Source: Candidatus Azambacteria bacterium GW2011_GWA2_42_9 (GTDB taxonomy: Bacteria > Patescibacteriota > Minisyncoccia > UBA10092). Taken from it: a DNA stretch of 35,511 nucleotides. Made by a program: the position numbers and the translations under genes. The stretch covers positions 1 to 35,511 of the forward strand of contig LCEQ01000006.1 of NCBI GenBank assembly GCA_000994805.1. The letters run 5' to 3'. Below, piece after piece: positions 18,949 through 21,906 of this stretch; positions within the stretch are counted from its first letter, which is position 1, and each line of letters starts with the position of its first letter. The notes beneath the pieces were generated by a model. It was not told the DNA's origin. It did no database searches and worked only from the letters and a program-made list of their open reading frames with translations.

Positions 18949-18978
18949 CCCCGGGGCGCGCTGCTGCGCGCCCCGGGG
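18949..18978. terminator. Perfect 13-bp GC-only hairpin between convergent genes
   Basis: CCCCGGGGCGCGC-TGCT-GCGCGCCCCGGGG; on the minus strand it is followed by ATTCACTTTTTT. Confidence 0.65.
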
Positions 18979-19561: not shown

Positions 19562-20143
19562 ATGAAGTACGAACTGCCCAAATTGGAATACGGCTACGAC
19601 TCGCTTGAGCCGTATATTGACGCCAAGACAATGGAAATCCACCACACTAAGCATCATCAGGGTTATATTGATAAACTTGATGCCGTTTTGGAAAAATATC
19701 CCACAATAGCGGACAAGAGATTAGGGGATTTAATAAAAGAATTACCGACTCTCGCGATAGATGAGACCGACAAAACGGTTTTAAAAAACAACGGCGGTGG
19801 CCATTTGAACCATTCTCTATTTTGGCAGATTATGAGCCCGCAAAAGAATATTGACACAACTCTTGCTGAAGAAATAACAAAAACTTTCAACTCAACTGAT
19901 GAATTTAAAAAGCTTTTTAGCGACACCACAACAAAACATTTCGGAAGTGGCTGGGCGTGGTTGGTAAGAGATGAAGGCGGCGCATTAAAAGTTTACTCAT
20001 TGCCTAACCAAGATTCGCCCTTGGCTTTGGGTCACACTCCGATTTTCGGCTTGGACATTTGGGAACACGCCTATTATCTCAAATACCAGAACCGCCGCGC
20101 CGAATACGTTGATAACTGGTGGAACGTTTTGAAATTATTGTGA
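19562..20143 (+). CDS. Superoxide dismutase (Fe/Mn family)
   Basis: 'YELPKLEYGYDSLEPYIDAKTMEIHHTKHHQGYIDKLD', 'GGGHLNHSLFWQIMSP', 'GSGWAWLV', 'GLDIWEHAYYLKYQNRRAEYVDNWWNVL'. Confidence 0.95.
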   Translation: MKYELPKLEYGYDSLEPYIDAKTMEIHHTKHHQGYIDKLDAVLEKYPTIADKRLGDLIKELPTLAIDETDKTVLKNNGGGHLNHSLFWQIMSPQKNIDTTLAEEITKTFNSTDEFKKLFSDTTTKHFGSGWAWLVRDEGGALKVYSLPNQDSPLALGHTPIFGLDIWEHAYYLKYQNRRAEYVDNWWNVLKLL

Positions 20144-20455
20144 GGGGTTGACCCCGCCCTTGAGATTTCTATAAAGTAATAAGTATGTTTTATATGTATG
20201 TGCTCTTATTAGATAATGATCAGCTTTACATTGGTTTTACTAATGATCTTAAAAAACGTATTAAATTGCATAAAGAAGGGAAAGTATTCACAACTAAGAA
20301 ATTTCTTCCGGTAAAACTTGTATATTATGAGTGTTATCTTGATAAAGAAGATGCTGAACAAAGAGAATTTATGATAAAAAGATTCGGTAGTACTTACTCC
20401 CATCTAAAAAAGAGAATTACCAACAGTATAAAGAAATCTCAAGGGCGGGGTTGAC
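20144..20455 (+). mobile_element. Candidate small GIY-YIG mobile unit with inverted repeats and 9-bp direct repeat
   Basis: GGGGTTGAC at 20144-20152 and 20447-20455; 20-bp perfect inverted repeat ACCCCGCCCTTGAGATTTCT (20151-20170) versus its complement at 20432-20451. Confidence 0.6.
20185..20454 (+). CDS. GIY-YIG nuclease family protein (URI/COG2827-like)
   Basis: 'MYVLLLDNDQLYIGFTNDLKKRIKLHKEGKVFTTKKFLPVKLVYYE...DAEQREFMIK'. Confidence 0.88.
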   Translation: MFYMYVLLLDNDQLYIGFTNDLKKRIKLHKEGKVFTTKKFLPVKLVYYECYLDKEDAEQREFMIKRFGSTYSHLKKRITNSIKKSQGRG

Positions 20456-20478
20456 AGATTCTGTAGATTTGATATACT
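20451..20478 (+). promoter_or_regulatory. Putative promoter TTGACA-16 bp-TATACT
   Basis: TTGACA GATTCTGTAGATTTGA TATACT with extended -10 (TGATATACT); immediately precedes the GC-rich structured region. Confidence 0.7.
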
Positions 20479-20484
20479 CAAGGT

Positions 20485-20950
20485 AGGTTGGGTAGCGGGC
20501 TAGTAGTAGCCCGTGATTACAGCCCAATCCTGCGACTGACCAACGATGGTCAGTCGCAGGATTGACGGTTCTTTTCTTCTCAACAAAGCCAAAAAATCGG
20601 CGCGGCAGTCTTTGCCAAACACCATCAGACTGTCCGAATCTGCCAGAGACTAAACCCCTGCGGTTTGCTTCTGCCGCGCCAAACAAAAATACCGCCTTGC
20701 GCCTGATCATCAGCGGTCAGGGGCAAGGCGGGACGCCTTCCATGGGAGACGGATGGCTCTTACCGTGGCAAGGCCAGACGGCACAGGCCCACCACCCTCT
20801 ATCCAAGTCCAAGCCATCCTGGATAGAGGCGCACTTTTCCTAACGAATCCCGGCCGCATCTACCAAGCCGCGGCTCGGGTGGCCGCCCAAACCCGTCAAA
20901 AGCGGGCCGTGGGCATGGCAGTCACCAAACGGGAGAGCGGGAATTTCTTT
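20485..20950 (+). ncRNA. Candidate large structured noncoding RNA
   Basis: Promoter upstream, no SD-led ORF, GC-rich relative to flanks, nested perfect stems at 20496-20513, 20525-20564, 20599-20608/20671-20680, 20692-20700/20723-20731, 20796-20805/20820-20829, 20849-20879. Confidence 0.6.
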
Positions 20951-21906
20951 CATTCCAAAACACTCCCAATAAAATCTTTATGGCCGTTTAAAAATTCTTG
21001 CGCTGATAAAATCTTCCCGCCTTCAAGCTGTAATTTTTTTATTATTAAAACACCAGCTCCGCATTTCACTCCCAACAATACCCCAATATTTTCAAGTATG
21101 TTGGGGTGTTGTAATGTAAAGATTTCGCCGATTTGGTGATTATTTTTATCTTCTGAGATATTGGCTTCTATAATTTTAAGAATTTTATTTTTGATATTAG
21201 CGTAAGCGCCCGGCCATGGATAATACGCCCGAACCATTCTTTCAATTTCTTCCGCCGATTTTTGCCAATCAATTTTTCCGTCTTCTTTTTTTATTATTTT
21301 CGTATAAGTCGCTTTATTGTATTCTTGGGGAACCGGTTTTATTTTCCCCGAGATATAATCGGGAATTGTTTTTATCAAAAGTTCCGCCCCCAATTCAGCA
21401 ATTTTTTTAGAAAGTGTTTCATAAGTATCGCCATTAGCTATAAGCAATTTGCTATAAGCAATCACTGCTCCGTGATCCATTTCTTCATCAACTTCCATAA
21501 TCGTCACGCCCGTTTCTTTATCGCCGTTTAAAATGGCCGTTTGGATGGGCGAAGCACCGCGGTAATAAGGAAGAAGTGAGCCGTGGACATTTATAAAACC
21601 ATAAACCGGTATGTCTAAAATTTCTTTTGGTAAAATTTTTCCATAAGCGGCGATAATTGCCAGATCCGATTTTAAATTTTTAAATTGTTCTAAAAATTCC
21701 AAATTATCGCGCAATTTTTTAGGCTGGAAAACCGGAATGTCGTGTTTTTCCGCCAGCACTTTTGCTGGCGGGGGAGTGAAAATCTGTTTTCTGCCAACCG
21801 GCTCGTCGGGATTTGTGACAACCGCTGCCGGCGTATAGCCAACATCTATCAATTTTCCCAAAACTATCGCCGCGAATTCCGGCGTCCCGAAAAAAACGTA
21901 TTTCAT
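20950..21906 (-). CDS. fmt: Methionyl-tRNA formyltransferase
   Basis: 'VFFGTPEFAAIVLGKL', 'NVHGSLLPYYRGASPIQTAILNGDKETGVTIMEVDEEMDHGAVI'. Confidence 0.95.
   Translation of the reverse strand: MKYVFFGTPEFAAIVLGKLIDVGYTPAAVVTNPDEPVGRKQIFTPPPAKVLAEKHDIPVFQPKKLRDNLEFLEQFKNLKSDLAIIAAYGKILPKEILDIPVYGFINVHGSLLPYYRGASPIQTAILNGDKETGVTIMEVDEEMDHGAVIAYSKLLIANGDTYETLSKKIAELGAELLIKTIPDYISGKIKPVPQEYNKATYTKIIKKEDGKIDWQKSAEEIERMVRAYYPWPGAYANIKNKILKIIEANISEDKNNHQIGEIFTLQHPNILENIGVLLGVKCGAGVLIIKKLQLEGGKILSAQEFLNGHKDFIGSVLE

Follow-up and report, generated by a model that had tools for sequence, protein, structure and literature searches.

A single small GIY-YIG gene, enclosed by a long inverted repeat, lies between the superoxide dismutase gene sod and a putative RNA gene in a Candidatus Azambacteria genome, and the question that this locus raises is whether it is a mobile element in its own right and, if so, which protein moves it. 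We considered the locus within the window, i.e. the whole stretch of 35,511 bp that was analysed, and beside related loci of other genomes. The following features were annotated (window coordinates, with strand where one applies):

19562..20143, + strand: sod (Fe/Mn superoxide dismutase), left neighbour; Pfam Sod_Fe_N / Sod_Fe_C
20144..20147: GGGG just ahead of the left target duplication, either flanking sequence or left over from an earlier insertion
20148..20151: left target-site duplication TTGA, the same 4 bases as at 20451-20454
20152..20173: left arm (element end) CCCCGCCCTTGAGATTTCTATA, inverted repeat; the arm of L007 is homologous and compensatorily changed
20185..20454, + strand: GIY-YIG nuclease ORF, 89 aa; Pfam PF01541, E 1e-12
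20429..20450: right arm (element end) TAAAGAAATCTCAAGGGCGGGG, inverted repeat
20451..20454: right copy of the target-site duplication (TTGA), with which the -35-like TTGACA of the following transcription unit begins
20451..20940, + strand: region between sod and fmt with a promoter-like sequence and a putative non-coding RNA; in G003 it is conserved in part
20950..21906, - strand: fmt-like gene, right neighbour, from the ORF list, same order in G002 and G003; presumably methionyl-tRNA formyltransferase, as named from a sequence motif

The perfect 20-bp inverted repeat that the original prediction had placed around one GIY-YIG ORF (20151-20170 and 20432-20451) was recovered; its count includes an A/T pair from the TTGA copies, and it extends to 23 bp with one mismatch (20151-20173 and 20429-20451). 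No other perfect inverted repeat of at least 20 bp with copies 100-450 bp apart was present in the 35.5-kb window, and the longest inverted repeat in 30 block-shuffled windows was 14 bp. The sequence GGGGTTGAC does stand at both outer edges (20144-20152 and 20447-20455), as had been reported, but its interpretation as a 9-bp target duplication gave way to one of 4 bp (TTGA) once other copies were compared: the nonamer is composed of GGGG (arm end on the right, flank or target on the left), TTGA and a chance C. The element itself occupies 20152-20450 (299 bp, CCCC...GGGG) with TTGA on each side, and the layout after the sod stop codon (20143) reads GGGG-TTGA-(CCCC...GGGG, 299 bp)-TTGACAGATT, then the putative RNA gene. 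As had also been noticed, the right arm encodes the C-terminus of the ORF and the TGA stop falls within the right TTGA; part of the link between arm and protein is therefore positional. The left TTGACC, with TATAAA 16 bp further on, could be a putative promoter of the ORF, as read from the sequence. No second copy of the element was found in its own genome (548 kb, 31 contigs). Elsewhere in the window, a 30-bp palindrome, CCCCGGGGCGCGCTGCTGCGCGCCCCGGGG, lies at 18949-18978 with no flanking duplication.

The insertion target is the 5' edge of the putative RNA region (20451-20940), where TTGACAGATTNTGTAGATTTGATATA, at the right duplication and -35-like TTGACA, is conserved in the relative G003. 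The original prediction had suggested looking for sod-RNA loci without the insert: in two relatives of the same family, G002 and G003, the order sod, RNA, fmt is kept and the GIY-YIG element of the window is absent from the site, while in G004 fmt directly follows sod. The orthologous site of G003 (L149:1268-1385) holds two tandem 57-bp ORF-less palindromes, CCCCGTTAGAAG...CTTCTAACGGGG, with TTGA between them, followed by TTGACAGATTATGTAGATTTGATATAAT, which is exactly the target of the window. Three further observations concern this interval: each 57-bp palindrome can be read as a stem with two inner hairpins, the sod-RNA gap of G002 holds a different inverted-repeat insertion, AAAATCCTATCC..GGATAGGATTTT (L211, first ~165 nt past the sod stop), and an 18-bp hairpin lies at 20525-20564 within the putative non-coding RNA region of the window.

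A profile of 24 homologues searched against 188 genomes of the class retrieved GIY-YIG ORFs in 160 of them, with up to 16 per genome. We collected 131 loci and searched each ORF for a bracketing inverted repeat (score of at least 12 counted as a match), the control being left and right flanks drawn from different loci. Such repeats bracketed 68 % of the 131 loci vs 2.6 % of the swapped flank pairs; one arm mostly lies 10-50 nt 5' of the start codon and the other at or just past the stop codon, and about one third of the GIY-YIG ORFs have no clear arms. A set of 76 elements with clear CCC/GGG ends was retained for detailed analysis. Among genomes from the other classes of the phylum, 42 of 59 had the protein, and 4 of 30 loci had clear arms; a phylum-wide claim for armed elements was dropped owing to this rarity of arms outside the class. 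Two flavobacteria carried arms scoring at least 15 at 7 of 18 loci (control 99th percentile 12), a count in which one locus is entered under two ids, L038/L279; at one of these loci the repeat is perfect over 26 bp, and one copy sits between two genes reading as trpB and trpA. Long inverted repeats bracket the GIY-YIG ORFs of the flavobacterial loci L271, L276, L278, L279 and L284, several arms resembling CTGAGC..GTCGAAG repeats; dispersed repeats of this type gave 35 matches in the Dokdonia genome and 13 in the other flavobacterium, with no control hits.

Within the set of 76 elements, arm positions 4-12 pair with their own partner in 91-99 % of cases vs 27-41 % after swapping. In the CCCCCACAC arm family, pairing at positions 10-18 is ~0.9 with the own partner vs ~0.4 with swapped ones, and three kinds of base pair occur at single positions. 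The arms of L007, the nearest relative of the window element (protein 72 % identical), are homologous to those of the window and have inner bases altered on both sides. By these pairing counts, the arms conserve complementarity and the sequence itself drifts; they could persist through self-templated copying instead of structure recognition. The picture that would have spoken against the original prediction, in which all close relatives have the gene here, their arms diverged and not covarying, and no other copy has similar repeats, failed throughout, dozens of copies with covarying arms having been found. In a TATG-targeting group (L024, L061, L069, L075, L108, L116, L126, L127), arm mismatches occur at a fixed place, e.g. 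GTGA vs GTAG, as if an internal loop marked left from right.

Aligning the copies, as had been advised, defined the ends as YCCC...GGGR and the duplication as 4 bp, or 7 bp in a group at tRNA 5' ends (L008, L020, L044 and L054, with mismatches in L008 and L044). Exact 4-bp duplications flank 29 of the 76 elements vs 5.3 expected by swapping (at most 11 in 1000 shuffles), a figure that uses the boundary rule YCCC...GGGR, adopted after the data were seen; when boundaries were left unadjusted, 17 exact 4-mer duplications were counted vs 1.1 expected. The duplicated sequences (TGAA, TATG, TTGA, TGTG, TCAA, TAAG, TAAA) fit TNNR. In 13/76 elements GGG stands directly in front of the left duplication, compared with 3.3 % for random positions. 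The remaining 47 of the 76, with good arms, show no exact duplication, and a recurrent TTTA|TGAA or TTCA|TAAA arrangement looks like insertion without duplication. Copies from the same genome are alike from first to last base in unrelated flanks (L013/L089, 94.5 % over 307/307; L126/L144, 96.7 % over 299/299; L063/L071, 92.7 % over 303/303). Empty sites were also identified: in G073 (L063) the element splits ..TTAATATG|..|TATGCTAAC.. at the start codon of a gene that we take to be ruvB-like, and the sister species G029 has the empty site ..GTTAATATGCTAAC.. with a single TATG at the same start codon. Likewise, the occupied site ..CATGAT|..|ATGATAGAT.. of G147 (L095), at the start codon of a presumably frr-like gene, is empty as ..ATCATGATAGAT.. 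in G186 and as ..TTAATGATTGAT.. in G046. Judged by these comparisons, the element enters its target as one discrete piece bounded by YCCC...GGGR, often with a 4-bp duplication.

The start of an ORF abuts the right end in 37 of 76 elements, compared with 14.5 % for random positions, and the left end in 4 of 76. Many of these start codons are rebuilt from the last A or G of the element and the TG of the duplication, and five tRNA genes start within the terminal G run. From their positions, the elements land at 5' gene edges (start codons, tRNA and RNA genes), where the right end together with the duplication restores the gene start. L098 and L242, which belong to different classes, both lie at the apparent 5' end of RNase P RNA. 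One conserved non-coding site, AAACCTTTA|TGCTCAA..GTAGC, has been hit in different genomes by four arm types (CCCTG, CCCAG, CCCTCTCAC and CCCCATTAGAT; L031, L059, L073, L105, L141, L142). The interpretation of this AAACCTTTA|TGCT site as a coding hot-spot was rejected, as its translation yields no protein. In L013 and L019, of one arm family, the right flank TGTGGATAA resembles a DnaA box.

Several insertions at one conserved site, like the GIY-YIG domain and the intergenic position, would be expected of a free-standing homing endonuclease of the T4 seg type, which cuts the allele lacking its gene, whereupon homologous repair copies the gene into that allele; on this view the arms would be regulatory hairpins. 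Homing, being gene transfer between alleles of one site, leaves no target duplication, whereas the present elements have duplications, occur within one genome at unrelated sites with unrelated flanks, and can be stacked in tandem at one site. In spite of the precedent of seven seg genes in T4 (PMC2988022), we regard this explanation as highly improbable. Still less credit can be given to an element acting at the RNA level, i.e. arms forming a transcript hairpin (terminator, RNase III site or intron-like segment) with the signs of mobile DNA being secondary. The two arms do pair in the folded transcript (z -4.9), and GIY-YIG insertions are described in CPR rRNA genes (PMC11270868); against it stand the lack of a U-tract after the arm, the lack of any Rfam match for the element or the downstream putative RNA, the location of the elements at gene starts instead of inside coding regions, and the DNA target duplications.

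The only ORF of the element encodes 89 aa, to which Pfam assigns GIY-YIG and nothing else. In the alignment of the 24 homologues, Y5, Y15, G17, R25, H29, E61 and K65 are invariant; the catalytic Tyr, Tyr, Arg and Glu of the GIY-YIG superfamily are among them, which places the protein in that superfamily. By profile, UPF0213 proteins (1zg2/1ywl) are the closest solved structures, followed by SLX1, a structure-specific nuclease. Values of dN/dS of 0.03-0.2 between close copies (the pair L059/L073, misaligned and of unequal length, being excluded) indicate strong purifying selection. When traits were mapped on a tree built from 89 element proteins, arm type required 7 changes and host family 64. 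The tree rests on 82 columns and has many open forks, arm types were assigned by hand and elements of uncertain type were left out of the count; the difference is nevertheless large. As judged from sequence comparison, the elements move between unrelated hosts.

The same ends also occur without the ORF. The pattern CCCGTTAGA-N10-40-TCTAACGGG gave hits in 38 of the 188 genomes and none in the controls, and reached 45 copies in G014; the same ends 240-270 bp apart were found in 29/188 genomes with zero control hits, and most of these, among the matches listed, are GIY-YIG elements. Long and short CCCGTTAGA elements co-occur, 15 genomes having both (Fisher p 3e-5, in a test that ignores host phylogeny), and some genomes have short palindromes without a matching long element. 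Two CCC/GGG-ended palindromes hold a complete tRNA gene and no nuclease ORF (L131:275-380 and L046:1929-2040; Pro TGG and Met CAT), each beside or within fragments of another tRNA. A tRNA intron was considered for these two and rejected, since the joined flanks give no intact interrupted tRNA.

The abundance of ORF-less palindromes, the two with tRNA genes as content and the genomes in which short palindromes lack a long counterpart would all suit a passive role of the nuclease, the ends being a MITE/REP-like repeat moved by another host or phage enzyme and GIY-YIG one cargo among several. Such a cargo would not be expected to show an arm type that tracks the nuclease tree or ORFs under strong purifying selection, nor would full-length matches to a pattern made of ends only be mostly GIY-YIG ORFs, again among the matches listed; we consider this alternative unlikely. 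The arm type tracking the tree, the purifying selection, the invariant catalytic residues and the likeness to SLX1 make a nuclease that reads the pairing of the arms, and not their sequence, the simplest account. We therefore favour, with a probability of roughly 0.7, autonomous mobile elements in which the GIY-YIG nuclease would recognise the paired arms and drive insertion, the ORF-less palindromes being their non-autonomous partners. Of the self-spreading unit initially proposed, the mobile element is borne out by comparison of duplications, empty sites and same-genome copies, and its mobilisation by the nuclease is what we infer.

In the proposed mechanism, the nuclease, as a UPF0213/SLX1 relative, would bind the hairpin or cruciform of its own arms and nick at its foot. 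It would cut TNNR targets, frequently ones preceded by GGG, with a 4-nt stagger; host repair would then copy or join the element in, and gap filling would yield the duplication. The same nuclease would probably also act in trans on short ORF-less palindromes whose ends match and mobilise them, much as REP-associated transposases are thought to mobilise REP sequences.

In the broad sense, the family would qualify as a bacterial transposable element with the nuclease as its putative transposase. Whether it forms a DNA transposon class of its own, with a GIY-YIG nuclease of ~90 residues as the only mobilising protein, ends read as base-paired structure and not as sequence, and dispersed palindromes mobilised in trans, appears to us evenly balanced; such a class could include the abundant flavobacterial palindromes of the CTGAGC..GTCGAAG type. 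The known bacterial DNA transposons rely, to our knowledge, on DDE, HUH, serine, tyrosine or Cas1-type enzymes, and a GIY-YIG enzyme as sole mobiliser would add a class, probably the smallest of the autonomous ones. It would also explain the abundance of small GIY-YIG genes in reduced CPR genomes, provide CPR palindromic repeats with a mobiliser and illustrate how an element strikes start codons and tRNA genes yet restores them. The covarying, drifting arms make structure-based end recognition directly testable, and related bracketed copies in the cultured flavobacterium Dokdonia sinensis open the way to bench work.

The family is large, is widespread in the class of ultra-small CPR bacteria (Patescibacteria) sampled here and is apparently undescribed, no paper on its arms, duplications or members having been found in the openly accessible literature searched. 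Group I and II introns differ in their catalytic RNA fold, for which the element gives no Rfam match, and rRNA intervening sequences lie in rRNA, whereas the window element lies between sod and a putative RNA gene without Rfam match. GIY-YIG-encoding, non-intron insertions in CPR rRNA genes were described in a 2024 survey, whose authors placed them outside homing (PMC11270868); hosts, coding content and non-intron nature are shared with our elements, but the survey covered rRNA genes only, and the text searched mentions neither inverted repeats nor duplications nor a wider family. Among known free-standing GIY-YIG elements, the nearest are the seven genes segA-G of T4, likewise intron-free and intergenic between conserved genes, for which the text searched reports neither arms nor target duplications (PMC2988022). 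Moreover, seg genes spread by homologous repair at allelic sites, whereas our copies are near-identical at unrelated sites of one genome. Penelope-like elements are also mobile and use a GIY-YIG nuclease, but need a reverse transcriptase, for which 299 bp with one 89-aa ORF leave no room. As for the structural relatives of the nuclease, UPF0213/YhbQ-like proteins are chromosomal single genes and SLX1 is part of a structure-specific resolvase; we know of no mobile member of either. DDE insertion sequences and MITEs share terminal inverted repeats and target duplications with the family, and MITEs, which derive from DDE transposons, are also short and multicopy, which the ORF-less palindromes fit; however, a DDE transposase is absent here, only the GIY-YIG ORF fits, and the arms vary in sequence. 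REP/RAYT systems, relatives of IS200/IS605, combine a small nuclease gene between palindromic ends with many matching ORF-less palindromes and a tetranucleotide at the hairpin foot, and our family resembles them in its hairpin ends, adjoining tetranucleotide (TNNR next to CCC/GGG) and ORF-less palindromes. The IS200/IS605 and REP/RAYT enzyme is, however, of the HUH/Y1 type instead of GIY-YIG, and insertion occurs there without duplication, whereas duplications here exceed expectation, though a subset looks duplication-free; in contrast with REP/RAYT, the whole ORF sits in the loop of one long stem. Every named element class compared has at least one defining trait that the family lacks.
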